This document shows, piece after piece, positions 8,582 to 38,340 of a stretch of 64,000 nucleotides of DNA. Numbering within the stretch: the stretch's first letter is position 1; each line of letters begins with the position of its first letter. Source of the stretch: Lentibacillus amyloliquefaciens. GTDB taxonomy: Bacteria > Bacillota > Bacilli > Bacillales > Amphibacillaceae. The notes beneath the pieces were generated by a model. It was not told where the DNA came from, did not search any database, and was given only the letters and a program-made list of their open reading frames with translations. A program made the position numbers and the translations under genes. The stretch lies in assembly GCF_001307805.1 (NCBI RefSeq), contig NZ_CP013862.1, positions 3,038,001-3,102,000 on the forward strand, in the 5' to 3' direction.

Positions 8582-9826
8582 ATGGTGAATCAGCATACGA
8601 AGGAGAAATATGCAGACTTAGCGTTGAAAACAGGTGTCAACTTACAAAACAACCAGGCGCTCATGATCAATGCGCCGATTGAAGGGGCGGACTTTACAAA
8701 AATCGTCGCTAGAAAGGCTTATGAAATGGGCGCAAAAGACGTACATATCAACTGGGTGGATGATGAACTGACATTATTAAAGTATGAGAATGCACCAGAT
8801 GAAGTCATTGGAAATTTCCCTGAGTGGAAAGTTAAATTAAACGATACGTATGCCGAAGACGGTGCGGCAGTGCTATCGATCCGCTCAACCAATCCGGACT
8901 TGTTGAAAGATATCGATTCATCCCGGATAGCGATGGCTAATAAGGCAGGAGCCGAAGCAATGAAAAATTTCCGCCAGTATACGATGAACGACCGAATTAC
9001 GTGGTCAATCATTTCCATTCCAACTGGTGACTGGGCTCAGAAAGTTTTCCCTGATAAATCAAAAGCGGACGCTGTGGAAAGCTTGTGGGATGCTATCGTT
9101 AACATTGTCAGAGTCGACAAGGACGATCCAATCGCAGCATGGGAAGAACATAACCAGACACTAAAAACGGCACGCGAAATCCTGAACAAAAAGACATATC
9201 AAAAGCTTGTGTTCAAAGCACCCGGCACGGATTTGGAAATTGAGCTTCCAAAAGGGCATATATGGAAAGGCGGCTCTGCTGTTTCAGAACAGGGAACACC
9301 ATTCAACCCGAATATGCCGACAGAGGAAGTCTTCTCCCTGCCGCATAAATATGGTGTGAACGGAACGGTAGCGAGCACGAAGCCTCTTAACTACAGCGGC
9401 AGTGTGATTGATCATTTCAGCCTCACGTTTAAAGACGGAAAAGTCGTTGATTATCAGGCTGAACAGGGAGAAGAAACTCTGAAACATTTGCTGGAGACAG
9501 ATGAAGGAGCACAACGGCTTGGTGAAGTTGCGCTTGTGCCGCATGAATCACCGGTCTCCCAGTCAGGACTGATTTTCTACAACACACTTTTTGATGAAAA
9601 TGCATCCTGCCATATCGCCTTGGGTAAAGCGTACCCGACCAACCTTGAAGGCGGTTCGCAAATGGATGATGACACACTTGATCAAAACGGTGTCAACGAT
9701 AGTCTGACTCACGTTGATTTTATGATTGGCTCTGAAAACTTGGACATAGACGGTGTTCTTGAAGATGGCACGACAGAAGCTGTATTCCGCAATGGCACAT
9801 GGGCCTTGAACGTAAAAGGGGAGTAA
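8582..9826 (+). CDS. ampS: Aminopeptidase, M29 family
   Basis: 414 residues from the ATG at 8582, which has GGAGG 8 bases upstream; an earlier in-frame ATG (8555) precedes the ribosome binding site. The C-terminal half carries the M29 metal-binding set: a Glu in NMPTEEVFSLP, Glu in GEVALVP, His in CHIALGKAY and the HVDFMIG motif with His and Asp. The family removes N-terminal residues from peptides in the cytosol using two Zn or Co ions. Length matches AmpS of Bacillus. It is a single-gene unit closed by a strong terminator. Confidence 0.92.
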   Translation: MVNQHTKEKYADLALKTGVNLQNNQALMINAPIEGADFTKIVARKAYEMGAKDVHINWVDDELTLLKYENAPDEVIGNFPEWKVKLNDTYAEDGAAVLSIRSTNPDLLKDIDSSRIAMANKAGAEAMKNFRQYTMNDRITWSIISIPTGDWAQKVFPDKSKADAVESLWDAIVNIVRVDKDDPIAAWEEHNQTLKTAREILNKKTYQKLVFKAPGTDLEIELPKGHIWKGGSAVSEQGTPFNPNMPTEEVFSLPHKYGVNGTVASTKPLNYSGSVIDHFSLTFKDGKVVDYQAEQGEETLKHLLETDEGAQRLGEVALVPHESPVSQSGLIFYNTLFDENASCHIALGKAYPTNLEGGSQMDDDTLDQNGVNDSLTHVDFMIGSENLDIDGVLEDGTTEAVFRNGTWALNVKGE

Positions 9827-9891
9827 GGCGTCTAGGTATAAAAGCTGATTGGACAGTGTTGCTAAGCCGAACGTTAATCTTCCCGCGGACC

Positions 9892-9933
9892 AAAGAGGCA
9901 CAATCCCTCCACTGGGATTGTGCCTCTTTACAT
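9892..9933 (+). terminator. Terminator after ampS
   Basis: A perfect 16-bp stem (9892-9907 with 9914-9929; arm AAAGAGGCACAATCCC) with a 6-base loop. The T-rich arm at each end makes it usable in both directions. Confidence 0.85.
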
Positions 9934-9975
9934 TGGCTATTTTCTAAAAGGTTGTTTGGTTGTGACACAAAATCC

Positions 9976-10146
9976 ATAAAGTGAAACTTCAATCATTGGC
10001 GGGGCGCTTTTTTCCGCCATTGATTGTTAGTTGAACAGAATCGGACATTTAGGATCAGTTAGCCGCCGTTCTTCGGCGGGTTACTGACCATTACATGCGG
10101 GATAAAGTGAAACTTCAATCATTGGCGGGGCGCTTTTTTCCGCGGC
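9976..10146 (-). repeat. Two-hairpin intergenic repeat, locus 1 (one full unit plus a partial unit)
   Basis: A unit starting ATAAAGTGAAACTTCAATCA at 9976 recurs at 10102, 126 bases later, where it is truncated after about 45 bases. Each unit has two modules: a hairpin with arms around CAATCATTGGCGG, and a GC-rich hairpin (CAGTTAGCCGCCG with CGGCGGGTTACTG). The same unit is found at 14091-14364 and 48299-48548 in the opposite orientation. This stretch and the next repeat fill the 411-base gap between ampS and recQ. Confidence 0.85.
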
Positions 10147-10178
10147 GGTATCATAGCACTAACACATTTTTCATAATA

Positions 10179-10213
10179 TGTCGCAGTTTACATCAACCGC
10201 GGGGGTTAAATAA
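10179..10213 (+). repeat. Short shared intergenic repeat (copy 1)
   Basis: TGTCGCAGTTTACATCAA followed by a GC-rich step and GGTTA recurs at 46120-46150. Both copies lie just before the 3' end of a - strand gene (recQ here, pbpG there). Origin unknown. Confidence 0.6.
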
Positions 10214-10237
10214 CAACAGAGTTTATGAAAAGAGCCT

Positions 10238-12388
10238 TCACATGAAGCCATTCTTCACCAGTACAGCTTTGATTTTCGTATAATCATAATCATCCGGCAA
10301 TAATTCCTTCAAAGGGGCTAGCTTTGCTTCATCCACTTTATTCCGCGCGTCCAAAATTGCCGCTTCCTCTTCCTGATTAAAAAATATTTCCCATGCAATC
10401 GGGCGGCCTTCCTTAAATGCTTTGAAAAGGTGTCCTTCAATCGTCTTATGGGTCAGCTCTCTAATGGCGGCAATATCCTTAATCGATTTGCCGGCCTGAA
10501 ACATCGAATAGCTCTGCACGTGGCTTGGACGATCGTCTGCTTCTTTCTTTTTTTTGATTGGCCCCTCATTGCCGGCTATTTTGACAGGGCTTGCCGCATC
10601 TGGATTATTTGTACGCCAGTGACGTACCGCCTCAAGAAAAGCTTCACCGTATTGTTCGTATTTTTTCTCGCCGATGCCTTTAATGGCGAGCATGTCTTCT
10701 TTTGTCTCCGGCAGGTAACGGCTCAATTCTTTTAGCGTGGCATCGGAAAATAAGACATATGGCGGGACGGCCTGTTCGTCTGCCATCCGTTTGCGCAGTT
10801 CCCTCAGTGATTCAAACAGCTCTTTTTGATAGTCTTCCGGCTCGCTTGCAGGTATTGGTGTGGTGTACATCCAGACAGTTTCTTTGCCTTTGAGCACATC
10901 GGCAGCATTTTGATTGAGCTTTAGTGTAGGAAACTTGCCGTCTGCTGTGGCCAGCCACTTTTCAGCAACTAAAAATTGGATTCGTTCCGTGATTTCTTTT
11001 TCAGTGTAGGCGGAAAGAAGACCATAGGTGGAAAGTCTATGTAAACCGAATTGCTGAATACGACTGCTTTTAGAGCCTTTTAGCACTTTGGCTGTCATGC
11101 TTACGCCAAAGCGTTCGTCCATGCGTTTCACACACGATAAAATCATCTGTGCTTCTTCTGTGATATCCACCCGGTTCTGCCGATTAAGACAGTTGCTGCA
11201 GTGCCCGCACGAGGATTTCGATGCAGCTTCCTTGTCATTAAAATATGCCAGTATAGATGATGTCAAACAGCCATGTGTATGGCAATAGTTCATCATGGCC
11301 TGCAATTTGCGGTATTCATTTTGCTTGCTGCCTTCATCCATGAATGATTGTTCAATGAGAAATTTCTGCAGTTGGACATCCTGCGGGGAAAATAGCAGGA
11401 TACAATCACTATGCTCCCCGTCACGGCCGGCCCTGCCGGCTTCCTGATAGTATGATTCAATCGACATCGGCATTGCATAATGAATGATGAACCGTACATT
11501 GGACTTATCAATTCCCATACCAAATGCGTTTGTGGCGACCATGACGGTTTTTTCGTCGTGGATAAATGCAGTCTGTGCTTCTTTGCGTTCATTTTCCGAA
11601 AGACCGGCATGGTATTTAGCTGCCGAAAACCCGCGCTTTCTCAACTGTTCACAGAGTGCATCAGCCTGTTTTCGTGTGGCTGTATAAATAATCCCCGATT
11701 CATCCCGGTGCTCAGCCATAAAGGAACGGATATAGGTTGGTTTATCCTTACCTTTCACAACATGGAAGGATAAATTTGCCCGTTCGAATCCTGTTTTGAC
11801 AATATGGTCATTTTGGATATCCAATAATCCTTGAATGTCTGAAATCACGTCAGTTGTAGCGGTGGCAGTAAGCGCAACTGTAACAGGAATATCCGGCAGC
11901 TGGCTCAGGTTCGGTATGATTGACCGGTAGCTCGGCCTGAAGTCATGCCCCCATTGGGAAATGCAATGGGCTTCATCAAAAGCTATCAGAGAAATTGGGA
12001 TGCGTTTCATGACTGACATGAATGATGATGATTCAAATCGCTCGGGAGCCGCATAGACGAATTTATATTTGCCGGATTTAATATCATTAAGGCGTGTTTG
12101 CTGCTCACCGGGTGTAAGTGAACTGTTTATGTAAGTAGCCGGAATGCCCAGTGCCTGGAGTGCATCCACCTGGTCTTTCATGAGTGATATGAGCGGTGAA
12201 ATAATAATGGCAGTGCCATCCAGGGCCATGCCGGGAATTTGATAGCATAATGATTTGCCTCCGCCGGTCGGCATGACGGCAAGTGTGTTGTGCCTCTCGC
12301 TAATATGGTCGATTGTCTGCTTCTGTCCGGCACGGAATGTTTGATAGCCAAAATATGTCTGCAGGATTTGTTCAGCTTGTTTTGTCAT
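10238..12388 (-). CDS. recQ: ATP-dependent DNA helicase RecQ
   Basis: 716 residues. Superfamily 2 helicase motifs are complete: TGGGKS (Walker A, residues 41-46), FDEAHCISQWG (motif II with the RecQ aromatic-rich loop), TATAT, and QEAGRAGRDG (motif VI). A zinc-binding RQC region follows with Cys residues in HGCLTS and CGHCSNC. An HRDC domain (LRELRKRMADEQ, LAIKGIGEKKYEQYGE) lies near residues 530-600. The C-terminus carries an extra helix-turn-helix segment (SIKDIAAIRELTHKTIEGH) typical of longer Firmicute RecQ proteins. The enzyme unwinds forked and joint DNA 3' to 5' in recombination repair. It lies 68 bases downstream of brnQ on the same strand. Confidence 0.96.
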   Translation of the reverse strand: MTKQAEQILQTYFGYQTFRAGQKQTIDHISERHNTLAVMPTGGGKSLCYQIPGMALDGTAIIISPLISLMKDQVDALQALGIPATYINSSLTPGEQQTRLNDIKSGKYKFVYAAPERFESSSFMSVMKRIPISLIAFDEAHCISQWGHDFRPSYRSIIPNLSQLPDIPVTVALTATATTDVISDIQGLLDIQNDHIVKTGFERANLSFHVVKGKDKPTYIRSFMAEHRDESGIIYTATRKQADALCEQLRKRGFSAAKYHAGLSENERKEAQTAFIHDEKTVMVATNAFGMGIDKSNVRFIIHYAMPMSIESYYQEAGRAGRDGEHSDCILLFSPQDVQLQKFLIEQSFMDEGSKQNEYRKLQAMMNYCHTHGCLTSSILAYFNDKEAASKSSCGHCSNCLNRQNRVDITEEAQMILSCVKRMDERFGVSMTAKVLKGSKSSRIQQFGLHRLSTYGLLSAYTEKEITERIQFLVAEKWLATADGKFPTLKLNQNAADVLKGKETVWMYTTPIPASEPEDYQKELFESLRELRKRMADEQAVPPYVLFSDATLKELSRYLPETKEDMLAIKGIGEKKYEQYGEAFLEAVRHWRTNNPDAASPVKIAGNEGPIKKKKEADDRPSHVQSYSMFQAGKSIKDIAAIRELTHKTIEGHLFKAFKEGRPIAWEIFFNQEEEAAILDARNKVDEAKLAPLKELLPDDYDYTKIKAVLVKNGFM

Positions 12389-32282: not shown

Positions 32283-33401
32283 ATGCTTGTGCATAAAGCC
32301 TATAAGTTTCGGCTATACCCGACACAAGAACAAGCCATCCTGATTCATAAAACAATTGGCTGTTCCCGTTTTGTGTTCAATCATTTTCTTTCAACCTGGG
32401 ATGATACCTATCAGGAAACCGGGAAAGGATTGTCTTATGGTAATTGCTCTGCCCGATTGCCGGCATTAAAGGCGGATTTTCCCTGGCTAAAGGAAGTTGA
32501 TAGTATCGCTCTCCAATCATCTTTGAAAAGCCTCACAAATGCCTTTGACCAATTTTTTCAAGAACAATCGAACTACCCGCGTTTTAAATCCAAGAATAAT
32601 CAAATACAGTCGTATACAACCAAATACACGAATGATAATATTCGAATAACCGGAAACAAGCTCATACTGCCTAAACTCGGAGCTGTTAAATTTGCCAAAA
32701 GCCGGGAAGTCACTGGACGAATACTAAATGCCACGATTAGACGGAATCCAAGCGGTAAATATTTCGTGTCCATCCTGGCCGAAACGGAAGTCCACGAACT
32801 GCCTAAAACAGAGGCCACTGTCGGTATTGATCTAGGCTTAAAAGACTTTGCCATTCTTAGCACAGGTGAGGTATTCGGCAACCAACGATTTTTTCATAAA
32901 CTGGAACAGAAATTAATCAAAGCACAACGAATCATGAGCAGACGAGCGGAAGGGGGTGCCAATTGGCATAAAGCACGCATCAAGGTTGCACGAATCTATG
33001 AAAAGCTGACCAATGCACGCATGGATTTCCTGCATAAACTATCGTCCAATATCATCAAAAACCACGATGTCATTGGATTGGAAGATTTGCAGGTTGTGAA
33101 CATGTTAAAAAATCATCGTTTAGCAAAAGCAATCAGTGATGTTTCGTGGTCAACCTTCAAGGATATGCTGACCTATAAAGCTGAATGGTACGGCAGACAA
33201 GTGGTGACTGTATCGAAAACCTTTCCTTCTTCCCAGCTATGTTCTAACTGCGAATATAAGAATAAAGATGTTAAGGACCTCAGTATTCGTGAATGGACAT
33301 GTCCTGAGTGCGGCATCCATCATGACAGGGATGTGAACGCGGCCAGGAATATAAGACGAGAAGCGATAAGACTAACCGCCGGGACAGCGGGGCTAGCCTA
33401 A
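32283..33401 (+). CDS. tnpB: RNA-guided endonuclease TnpB
   Basis: 372 residues, full length. The N-terminal helix-turn-helix segment begins [13 protein letters not shown]. The RuvC catalytic triad is intact: Asp183 in GIDLGLKDF, Glu267 in [11 protein letters not shown] and Asp350 in [12 protein letters not shown] zinc ribbon lies at Cys320, Cys323, Cys340 and Cys343 (CSNC...CPEC). TnpB cleaves DNA guided by an RNA made from the element's right end and helps the element persist. AGGGGGAAGGA precedes the ATG and a consensus promoter lies upstream, so it looks expressed. No tnpA accompanies it. Confidence 0.95.
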
Positions 33402-35561: not shown

Positions 35562-36023
35562 TTATCGCGGTGAGTATTGAGACATTTGCCCGCCGGAATT
35601 ATACGGGTATTCATAATTCAATTCTTCGTCAAATGTGACATAATCGAGATAGATCATTAGGAGCAGGTATCTTCTGCCTGTTCGCGGATCACGCAGAATG
35701 ATGTGATCTCTACCGGCTGCTTCAACAATACCCCGGAAAATTTGTGCATTCCATTCCTCATTATTTTCAAATGTCATGTAAACAGTTGCTTCCTTGCCTT
35801 CATTTAACCGCAAAATGTTTTCAATATACGATTGTTCCATTGGCAGCATACCCTGGTTTATCGGTGTCTGTTGCTGTTGCGTTTGCGGAGTTTGTTGCTG
35901 CTGATTTTGCGGCATTTGTCTCGGGTCGTAAACGGGATAATAGGCTGGGGAAGACTGCGGGTAATAATAGTAGGGATTCGCCTGATAAGGGTTGTTGTAG
36001 TTTGCATTATTTTCTTCACTCAT
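35562..36023 (-). CDS. gerQ: Spore coat protein GerQ
   Basis: 153 residues from the ATG at 36023, which has AGGAGG 7 bases upstream. The N-terminal half is a Pro/Tyr/Gln/Asn-rich low-complexity region (YQANPYYYYPQSS and two QQQQTP runs). The C-terminal half is the conserved GerQ domain (MEQSYIENILRLNEGKEATV, then GRDHIILRDPRTGRRYLLLM). GerQ is an inner coat protein, made by the mother cell, cross-linked by transglutaminase, and needed to localise the cortex hydrolase CwlJ. Its normal operon partner cwlJ lies just upstream but is a pseudogene. Confidence 0.95.
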   Translation of the reverse strand: MSEENNANYNNPYQANPYYYYPQSSPAYYPVYDPRQMPQNQQQQTPQTQQQQTPINQGMLPMEQSYIENILRLNEGKEATVYMTFENNEEWNAQIFRGIVEAAGRDHIILRDPRTGRRYLLLMIYLDYVTFDEELNYEYPYNSGGQMSQYSPR

Positions 36024-36045
36024 AAAAGAAACCTCCTGTAATGAA

Positions 36046-36453
36046 TTAATATACTCTTGGACACTCAGAAGAAGTAGGCGCAAAATAGCTATGGGCTTTA
36101 AAGTTGATGGTGTTTCACTGGCCGAACCATTGCGCCGGACGCAAAAATCATAAAGAATTCGTCTTAGTGTGATAGCGCTTGTCATTAATCACTTGCCGCG
36201 CAAGCCCCATATCTTGTTGTCTTGCTCGCTGGTAAAAATAGCCTTTCTGTGTTGCTTCGAATCTCCGGGGCTTTGAAACACTATTCTTCTGAGTGAGTTG
36301 ATATCCGTGGAATCCAAGCAATCGGCTCTGACCCGGTTAACGCCGGTGTTGCCGACCATCAGCATGCCCAGTTTCCCATCGCATTTTAGCTTCTGCACGC
36401 ATCAATCGGGCCAGTAATTTAACGCCTTCTTCGGCATATTAGATTACTGCCAT
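36046..36453 (-). pseudogene. cwlJ: Cell-wall hydrolase CwlJ, inactivated
   Basis: Reading the - strand from ATG 36453 gives a recognisable CwlJ/SleB-family protein: MAVI, stop, AEEGVKLLARLMRAEAK (with the conserved Glu), then in another frame CDGKLGMLMVGNTGVNRVRA, then back in frame FEATQKGYFYQRARQQ and a C-terminus ending YFAPTSSECPRVY. Lesions: TAA at 36439-36441, a +1 change in the A run at 36384-36387, a -1 change near 36262-36266, and TGA at 36148-36150 and 36115-36117, plus an apparent loss of a few residues before QWFG. CwlJ degrades spore cortex in germination. The stop is 22 bases from gerQ, the usual cwlJ-gerQ operon layout. Confidence 0.9.
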
Positions 36454-36646
36454 AACATAAGGCTATCCGTTTGCTCTTCATGTTTTGGCCTCCTAAATAT
36501 ATGTATGACTGAAGGGTTAAATTGATGACAGTTGCGGAGAAAAAATTTTTGCGGGGGATTATCAGTTTTTATTGAATAGTATTGCGTTCTTTCTTGTTCA
36601 AACGGGCAAGGTTGTGGAGAATTATAGATTGGGGAGATGAAATAAT

Positions 36647-36802
36647 TTGGAAATACTTATTTGGATGATAGCAGTTGTGGTATTAGTCAGCTTAATTATG
36701 GGTATCTATTCCACCAACAAATATTTTAAAGTAAAAGAGCAAGAGATGAAATTGGAACAAGAAAGATTAGAGTTGGAAAGAAAAAGATTAGAGAAAAATT
36801 GA
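36647..36802 (+). CDS. Small membrane-anchored coiled-coil protein, 51 residues
   Basis: TTG start with GGGGAG 10 bases upstream. One N-terminal membrane helix (LIWMIAVVVLVSLIMGIY) is followed by a purely charged helix rich in Glu, Lys and Arg (KLEQERLELERKRLEKN). This single-pass, cytoplasmic-coil layout is common in small Firmicute proteins of unknown function. It ends 26 bases before the next start, so the two may be co-transcribed. Confidence 0.6.
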   Translation: MEILIWMIAVVVLVSLIMGIYSTNKYFKVKEQEMKLEQERLELERKRLEKN

Positions 36803-36828
36803 TTTCGTTCAACAAAGGGGTGCGCATC

Positions 36829-37377
36829 GTGTCAAATGCACTACACAAACAAGTGGGTGATCATATGAATCTCGGGAATGAGTATTTGAAAGTTGTTCAG
36901 GAAAGATTTAAAAGTGTCAAAGACCTGGGGGATAAGACAATAAATCAATTGTCAGAAGACGACATTCACTGGCATTTAAATGGGGCATCAAATAGTGTTG
37001 CTGTTATAGCCAAACATTTAAGTGGGAATATGGTGTCTAGGTGGTCTAACTTTTTAAACTCGGACGGGGAAAAATCTTATAGGAATCGTGACCAAGAATT
37101 TGAGAATGATATACCGTCAAAACAGGAATTGATAGCAGTATGGGAAAAGGGTTGGAACACTCTCTTTGAAACATTAAATGGATTAGAGGATCAGGATATG
37201 ATAAAAACAGTATATATCCGTGGGGAAGGTCATACGGTACTGGAAGCAATCGAAAGGCAAATGGCTCACTATGCCTATCATGTAGGGCAAATAGTTTATA
37301 TTGGTAAACAAATAAAAGATGAGAATTGGGAAACTCTCAGTATCCCTAAAGGTAAATCAGAAGAATATTTACAATAA
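36829..37377 (+). CDS. DinB-superfamily protein (DUF1572)
   Basis: 182 residues from GTG 36829, which has AAGGGG 8 bases upstream; an earlier in-frame TTG at 36799 lacks a box. It is a four-helix DinB-like fold with the three metal-ligand His positions visible: VIAKHLSGNMVSRW, and the pair in MAHYAYHVGQIVYIGK. Members are metal-dependent, many act as thiol (bacillithiol) transferases, but this subfamily's activity is unknown. It follows a small membrane protein gene and is closed by a terminator. Confidence 0.85.
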   Translation: MSNALHKQVGDHMNLGNEYLKVVQERFKSVKDLGDKTINQLSEDDIHWHLNGASNSVAVIAKHLSGNMVSRWSNFLNSDGEKSYRNRDQEFENDIPSKQELIAVWEKGWNTLFETLNGLEDQDMIKTVYIRGEGHTVLEAIERQMAHYAYHVGQIVYIGKQIKDENWETLSIPKGKSEEYLQ

Positions 37378-37599: not shown

Positions 37600-38340
37600 T
37601 TAAACGTGTAAATAAGTATCTATTTTCTCTTTGGGCAAATGATTGCCGACGAAAAACTCGCCAAATTCGCCGTAAAGCGCACTTACTTCATCAAAGCGCA
37701 TTTCATAAACGATTTTTTTCAACTGGAGAACGTCGTGGGCAAACAGCGTGACGCCCCATTCCCAGTCATCGAAGCCGAACGATCCGGTAATAATTTGTTT
37801 CACTTCGCCGGCGTATTGGCGTCCGGTTTTCGAATGTTCATAGAGCAGCCGTGCCCGCTCTTTGAAATTAAGTGAATACCAGTTCTCGTCACCTTCACGG
37901 CGCTTGTCCATCGGGTAGAATGAGACGTGTTCCCATTTCGGCAGGATTGGATAGAGCCGCTCCCGTGTTTTTGGATCATCTGCGGAACTGTTGCCGCTGT
38001 ATTGGGAAAGTTCCACAACAGAGACGTATGAATGGGCAGGAATCAAAAACTCGGCAAATTTTGATTTATTGAATTCGGTTTCGATATCAGACAGCTCATC
38101 CATGGTCGGACGCAAAAACATAAACATCACATCTGCTTTCTGACCGACAATTTTGTAGAGAGCGTGACTGCCATTTTCAGCCTCTTCAACGGCTTCCCAT
38201 TTAGTCAGCAGCTCTTTAAGTCCATCGATTGCCTCGATACGTTCCTCATTTGAAATTTTTTTCCAGGAAGTCCAATCGATCGTGCGCATGTCATGCAAGC
38301 AATACCAGCCATCCAGTGTTTTAACTGCTTCAGCTGCCAT
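37600..38340 (-). CDS. hemQ: Coproheme decarboxylase HemQ
   Basis: 246 residues of the chlorite-dismutase-like family. The conserved [10 protein letters not shown] has the catalytic Tyr (residue 142), and [14 protein letters not shown] carries the axial heme His (residue 169). HemQ makes the last step of the coproporphyrin-dependent heme pathway of Gram-positives, oxidative decarboxylation of coproheme to heme b with peroxide. It is divergent from pta, exactly as ywfI-pta in B. subtilis. GGAGAG lies upstream of the ATG. Confidence 0.95.

Follow-up and report, generated by a model that had tools for sequence, protein, structure and literature searches.

The first gene of the cwlJ1-gerQ operon of Lentibacillus amyloliquefaciens is a genuine and fairly young pseudogene, located directly upstream of an intact gerQ. 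Among relatives, the loss of cwlJ1 forms a repeated and regular pattern that spares a promoter-like motif and gerQ. It is fairly probable that gerQ still works and that GerQ now serves CwlJ2, a paralogue encoded elsewhere in the genome, after the decay of cwlJ1. The window designates here the whole stretch of 64,000 nucleotides that was analysed, and coordinates without a prefix refer to it; its genome (G000) is a single contig of 3.86 Mb, 99.9% complete.

The cwlJ1 remnant and its neighbourhood

The features discussed below are the following, in the direction of transcription:

37600..38340, minus strand: hemQ-like gene, a conserved upstream neighbour used as synteny anchor (86-89% to an ORF of loci L005, L007 and L010)
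36498..36529, minus strand: GTCAT-N17-CATA, a sigma-E-like motif that precedes the cwlJ1 remnant and lies 507 bp before the start of gerQ
36046..36453, minus strand: cwlJ1 pseudogene from its original start to its stop codon (tblastn match to intact CwlJ and three collinear pieces)
36391..36453, minus strand: piece A, CwlJ1 residues 1-21 (81% to the CwlJ1 of genome G002, E 6e-6), with a stop at 36441-36439
36264..36380, minus strand: piece B, CwlJ1 residues 25-63 in a different frame (79% to G002 CwlJ1, E 1e-18)
36049..36270, minus strand: piece C, in the first frame again, CwlJ1 residues 62-140 (62% to G002 CwlJ1, E 2e-31)
36032..36036, minus strand: gerQ ribosome-binding site GGAGG, strong and conserved in relatives
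35562..36023, minus strand: gerQ, intact, 153 aa (TIGR02728, 151.7 bits for a cut-off of 88.95; PF09671, 149.3 bits)

An earlier note on this DNA had placed a cwlJ pseudogene, interrupted by three stop codons and two compensating frameshifts, at 36046-36453, and both its location and these lesions are confirmed. A tblastn search with the intact CwlJ of Lentibacillus saliphilus (L015) gives a match at 36453-36049 on the minus strand (E 2e-27), between an ATG at 36453 and a terminal TAA at 36048-36046. All three translated pieces resemble CwlJ1 more than CwlJ2, follow one another as in the intact CwlJ1 of G002 and together extend the similarity over the whole length of the protein, at a locus directly upstream of gerQ (36453-36046 versus 36023). 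Alignment with relatives locates two further stops in piece C (36150-36148 and 36117-36115) as well as a 15-bp in-frame deletion that had gone unmentioned. The 408 bp are thus interrupted by three in-frame stops and one deletion, besides two frame changes that compensate each other, and because of the stops and frame changes no reading frame is able to give an active CwlJ1. A Pfam scan of the pieces returned a sub-threshold Hydrolase_2 domain in one of them only (13.8 bits, cut-off 27). A frameshifted cwlJ1 that would still be decoded was ruled out by the stops that accompany the frame changes and by the decay seen in relatives.

The completeness of gerQ, also claimed earlier, holds: the frame is complete, its product reaches the TIGR02728 equivalog cut-off, and it is the sole PF09671 match in the whole genome. 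The statement that the frames are too short for automatic gene callers needs a small correction, since a 207-aa ORF (36185-35562), the longest touching the remnant, opens within it and continues into gerQ. A gene caller could therefore start gerQ too early and add a false N-terminal extension to GerQ. A true remnant-GerQ fusion through this ORF was ruled out, as the own ribosome-binding site and start codon of gerQ are conserved.

Upstream of the remnant, GTCAT-N17-CATA fits what we take to be the sigma-E consensus and is a putative sigma-E promoter by motif match. The neighbour at 37600..38340 is presumably hemQ. Between the hemQ-like gene and the motif, positions 36647-37377 contain two ORFs on the plus strand (51 and 192 aa); in genomes G003, G004 and G005, the hemQ-like gene is directly upstream (by eye). 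A TnpB-like ORF of 372 aa was also noticed by eye near the gerQ region (32283-33401).

The gene order of the window is that of the bicistronic cwlJ1-gerQ (ywdL) operon described for the Bacillus cereus group in PMC12331253 and PMC3161080. The likeness extends to the proteins, as the window GerQ belongs to TIGR02728 and the remnant best matches gerQ-linked CwlJ1. The operon of the window differs in having a pseudogene as its first gene, and in many Bacillaceae loci among those examined this gene is broken, scarred or absent beside a kept gerQ.

Erosion of cwlJ1 within Lentibacillus

Among the matches listed in a GerQ scan, the closest named relatives included L. kapialis, L. salicampi and Lentibacillus sp. 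CBA3610 (80% over its best segment). Their gerQ loci are those of genomes G010, G005 and G008, which places the window genome in Lentibacillus. The genus set comprised 12 Lentibacillus genomes, the window genome included. While gerQ is open in all 12, the adjacent cwlJ1 is intact in only two (G002 and G009). It is recognisable by tblastn but broken in five (G000, G006, G008, G010 and G011), reduced to shreds or to a scar of its 3' end in four (G001, G003, G004 and G005), and unrecognisable in G007, the sister species of the window genome. Scars were assessed by matching a 22-base cwlJ1 tail against 2000 shuffles. The match was 19/22 in G003 and 18/22 in G004 (no shuffle as good in either case), 15/22 in G001 (1/2000 as good) and 14/22 in G005 (15/2000); in G007, a 13/22 match that 202 of the 2000 shuffles equalled is indistinguishable from chance.

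The promoter-like motif GTCAT-N17-CATA stands upstream of gerQ in all 12 genomes, for a chance expectation of 0.03 in 10 shuffled upstream regions. The motif and gerQ are 507-532 bp apart in genomes with an intact or full-length cwlJ1, 271 bp in G006 and about 256 bp in G001, where cwlJ1 is partly deleted, and 123-165 bp in G003, G004, G005 and G007, where nearly all of it is gone (the values for G001 and for G007, about 165 bp, were read from the sequence by hand). The short distances indicate that cwlJ1 was deleted from between the motif and gerQ, both of which were spared.

A genus tree was built from the SleB catalytic domain, the GerQ domain, YpeB and the upstream neighbour, the last of which is missing for G000 and G008. 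It pairs G000 with G007 (100/99) and G010 with the scarred G003 (89/91). The states of cwlJ1 are interleaved on this tree, so that several separate decays within the genus are likely. Among the broken copies that align over their whole length (G000, G008 and G010), no indel is shared. The G010 copy (L005) has one frame change only and could be an assembly error.

Comparison with relatives, which the earlier note had proposed as a way to date the lesions, thus reveals lesions that differ across the genus, and it indicates that the decay in the window is young. Indeed, changes unique to the window remnant affect 12 of 99 first, 5 of 105 second and 16 of 37 third codon positions, contrary to the even substitution expected. 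This third-position bias suggests a recent inactivation and, as it persists, prolonged neutral decay cannot be read from the window copy by itself. The remnant of L. salicampi (G008) looks more relaxed, with 9/100, 11/106 and 7/39 unique changes at the three positions.

Where CwlJ1 is gone, gerQ is under purifying selection, with a dN/dS of about 0.08. The ratio is 0.075 between G004 and G005, which both carry scars, and 0.077 between G006 and G011, which both carry lesions. The scars of G004 and G005 are similar, which is compatible with a loss of cwlJ1 before their split. In the open-licence literature we found no description of a repeated loss of cwlJ1 beside a kept gerQ, and nothing on CwlJ in Lentibacillus.

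A second CwlJ encoded away from gerQ

A search of the rest of the genome for cwlJ and sleB had also been proposed. Beyond the remnant, the Hydrolase_2 domain occurs three more times in the window's genome: in SleB (L001), whose gene is frame-broken, in a LysM-Hydrolase_2 protein (L002) and in an intact CwlJ-like protein encoded away from gerQ (L003; PF07486, 62.2 bits for a cut-off of 27, complete frame). The latter is 89-92% identical to the CwlJ2-type proteins of G002, G004, G005, G008 and G010, and no other intact CwlJ-like protein was found in this genome. The suggestion that the organism relies on another CwlJ paralogue is therefore well supported. We call L003 CwlJ2 by analogy with the CwlJ2 of B. 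cereus, which according to PMC12331253 is monocistronic. Similarly, L003 is a CwlJ-like Hydrolase_2 protein whose gene lies away from gerQ, apparently alone. The B. cereus enzyme is described there as minor beside CwlJ1, whereas L003 would have no intact CwlJ1 beside it.

A separate intact CwlJ2 is found in 11 of the 12 genus genomes. The neighbours of its gene, compared by eye in nine Lentibacillus loci (L003, L102, L103, L105 and L107-L111), differ in most of them, those of G006 and G011 being shared. The cwlJ2 tree rejects the sister pair G000-G007 (p-AU 0.003), which is supported by SleB, GerQ and YpeB, and the third-position divergence among G000, G002, G004 and G010 is 0.15-0.20 for cwlJ2 versus 0.33-0.62 for sleB and gerQ. 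In G007, whose SleB is that of L. persicus, cwlJ2 lies between two genes that are adjacent in the window without cwlJ2 (junction at 9823-10241). A lateral spread of cwlJ2, or the differential loss of two old subtypes, may explain this pattern, and the long branch of G007 calls for caution. As side observations, the cwlJ2 of G007 is divergent, and window positions 9823-10241 contain repeated elements with related copies at L165:3876-4179.

A Tyr-rich protein of 130 aa encoded beside cwlJ2 (L003:722-1114) was considered as a dedicated CwlJ2 partner. It has no Pfam or NCBIfam match, and in the other eight Lentibacillus loci listed no such ORF was seen (by eye) at up to 1.5 kb from cwlJ2, so this role was rejected.

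GerQ and CwlJ in other genera and across the family

Beyond the genus, we surveyed 80 named gerQ loci, picked by GerQ similarity among the matches listed. According to their ORF pattern, an intact cwlJ1 is directly upstream in 39 of these loci, a partial gene or remnant in 14 and none in 27. Two of the 14 were left out, one being a full-length match in a single frame (L037) and the other being cut by a contig end (L068). The 12 remaining remnants belong to Halobacillus (4), Lentibacillus (2) and, with one each, Ornithinibacillus, Sediminibacillus, Oceanobacillus, Bacillus sp. SJS, Pseudalkalibacillus and Paraliobacillus; among the matches listed, remnants beside gerQ thus occur in seven genera besides Lentibacillus. 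An intact CwlJ2-type protein was present in all 11 remnant genomes searched among these matches, the genome of L072 being left out.

Some gerQ loci that lack an adjacent cwlJ have a CwlJ elsewhere (e.g., L051, L058 and L081). The last of these, from Bacillus sp. SKDU12, presumably a member of the B. subtilis group, resembles the window in having GerQ without an adjacent cwlJ, and its intact CwlJ is 58% identical to CwlJ2. Unlike the window, which keeps a remnant in the old place, it has none beside gerQ.

In a survey of 159 genomes of the family, with CwlJ matches accepted at E values up to 1e-12, GerQ was found in 151 and CwlJ in 149; 149 genomes have both, eight have neither and two have GerQ alone. 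On the whole, GerQ follows CwlJ in the family. CwlJ2 is the type of the best match in 124 of the 159 genomes, and 48 have exactly one CwlJ-like match, of the CwlJ2 type; GerQ is present in all 48.

One of the two genomes with GerQ alone, G191, probably has cwlJ1, since its gerQ is on a contig of 4,154 bp that starts with the sequence of L068 (Virgibacillus alimentarius) and hence begins inside cwlJ1. The other, G073, is the one clear exception; its GerQ is divergent and it has no SpoIVA match. None of the eight genomes devoid of GerQ has CwlJ. Four of them, all of one genus (G156-G159, genus g30), have SpoIVA and an open SleB and are thus apparent spore-formers that lack GerQ and CwlJ together; in G155, another member of g30, the two are present next to each other. 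As all four belong to g30, this joint loss may be a single event. The other four have no good SpoIVA match and may not sporulate, so they constitute weak evidence.

A probable scaffold shared by CwlJ1 and CwlJ2

GerQ (YwdL) is needed for the presence of CwlJ in the coat, and it forms nine-subunit rings or bowls and filaments, with CwlJ docked into the bowls (PMC11405398). That paper describes the binding as docked only and states that experimental evidence for it is lacking. In B. cereus ATCC 10876, germination of ywdL (gerQ) mutant spores in response to Ca-DPA is reported as completely blocked (PMC3161080). The response of strain 10876 to Ca-DPA, worded as "endogenous" CaDPA in PMC12331253, can make use of CwlJ1 or of CwlJ2 and is lost only in the absence of both. 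If both of these reports hold, CwlJ2 needs GerQ. A slow CwlJ2 response might have escaped the assay of the ywdL mutant.

These data make an orphaned gerQ intelligible, as CwlJ2 would remain as a client of GerQ. We infer that sigma-E still drives transcription from the former promoter of the operon, with a start predicted at about 36495, and that this transcription runs through the remnant and yields GerQ, which would form a scaffold in the spore coat. This scaffold would now hold CwlJ2 (in G003, another CwlJ-like protein), on which digestion of the cortex in response to Ca-DPA would depend. The scaffold would then be constant and the enzyme within it exchangeable. CwlJ2 is likely the replacement client of GerQ.

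Alternative explanations

GerQ could instead owe its retention to a second job, a possibility also raised in the earlier note; this job would be independent of CwlJ and concern the structure of the coat or outer layers. The fragile exosporium of B. cereus YwdL mutants, reported in PMC3161080, and the capacity of GerQ to form rings and filaments would be in line with such a job. The distribution in the family argues the other way, since a CwlJ match accompanies GerQ in 149 of 151 genomes, the contig edge accounts for G191, which leaves G073 with its divergent GerQ as the one clear exception, and the four apparent spore-formers of g30 dispense with both proteins. We thus regard a second job as unlikely.

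GerQ might also be a true orphan, with CwlJ2 acting independently of it and gerQ being the next gene to decay. The decay of cwlJ1 in the window is young enough that gerQ may have lacked time to follow. This is difficult to reconcile with the low dN/dS of gerQ between G004 and G005 despite their similar scars, and with the retention of GerQ in every genome where CwlJ2 is the sole CwlJ match, which renders an orphan GerQ quite improbable.

Still less probable is that cortex lysis rests on the LysM-Hydrolase_2 protein or on SleB, GerQ being incidental. The former is encoded by an open gene (L002, 201 aa, LysM and Hydrolase_2 domains), but it has a secretion-type N-terminus, recognised by eye, and a LysM domain that is absent from CwlJ2, and CwlJ2 is itself intact. 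A transposase-like ORF of 271 aa was noticed by eye upstream of this gene (L002:12-827). Reliance on SleB, proposed earlier, is unsupported in this assembly, in which SleB is not encoded by one complete frame covering the PG-binding and Hydrolase_2 domains. In sleB (L001; C1:955322-958618 in its own genome), an ORF of 184 aa covers no more than the very beginning of the catalytic domain before it stops at a short G run, and the remainder is open in another frame (127 aa). The ypeB gene 3' of it is complete (TIGR02889), and each of the 11 other Lentibacillus genomes has an open SleB of 287-296 aa. The lesion is doubtful, because an otherwise identical intact SleB exists: P0001, of 280 aa, is 100% identical over the aligned part, has the same C-terminal 100 residues as the SleB of the window genome and is associated with eight contigs, the longest of 7,869 bases. 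The sleB lesion may thus be an assembly error or a strain variation. Were the loss real, CwlJ2 would carry most of germination; for comparison, B. cereus spores lacking sleB and cwlJ1 have a viability of 0.002% (PMC12331253, Table 1).

Since the same assembly contains this frame break at a G run, the cwlJ1 lesions could likewise be attributed to sequencing or assembly errors. A first comparison of the window with the ORFs of relatives, at a floor of 50% identity, flagged no split gene, a limited result because this floor would have missed cwlJ1 too. A looser comparison had cwlJ1 as a positive control, with four stops along its aligned frame. Of the 49 ORFs of relatives that matched the window, 12 ran into one stop or more; cwlJ1 was one of these, and the other 11 showed no frame switch. 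These 11 sit at three places (30.5-31.0, 38.5-39.5 and 41.6-42.1 kb) and were provisionally taken for antisense or out-of-frame ORFs, or for alignments extending past a start codon. Among protein matches to a one-frame query with X at the stops, no intact CwlJ1 came comparably close to the remnant, the best reaching 52%; we estimate that an intact conspecific CwlJ1 would reach near two thirds identity, since about a third of this query is out of register. With so many lesions of three kinds within 408 bp, and different ones in relatives, an artefact is hardly credible.

Implications

The series of Lentibacillus loci depicts the erosion of an operon in which only the promoter and the downstream gene persist. 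The takeover by CwlJ2 is probably the cause of the repeated loss of cwlJ1. More broadly, and tentatively, since we give it somewhat less than an even chance, the GerQ scaffold may be fixed in the halophilic Bacillaceae while a laterally spreading CwlJ2 repeatedly displaces CwlJ1, whose gene would then erode between its own promoter and gerQ. In species that naturally have gerQ without cwlJ1, GerQ is uncoupled from the partner encoded in its operon and CwlJ2 is predicted to be its client, so that both the binding of CwlJ by GerQ and a second role of GerQ become directly testable in them.
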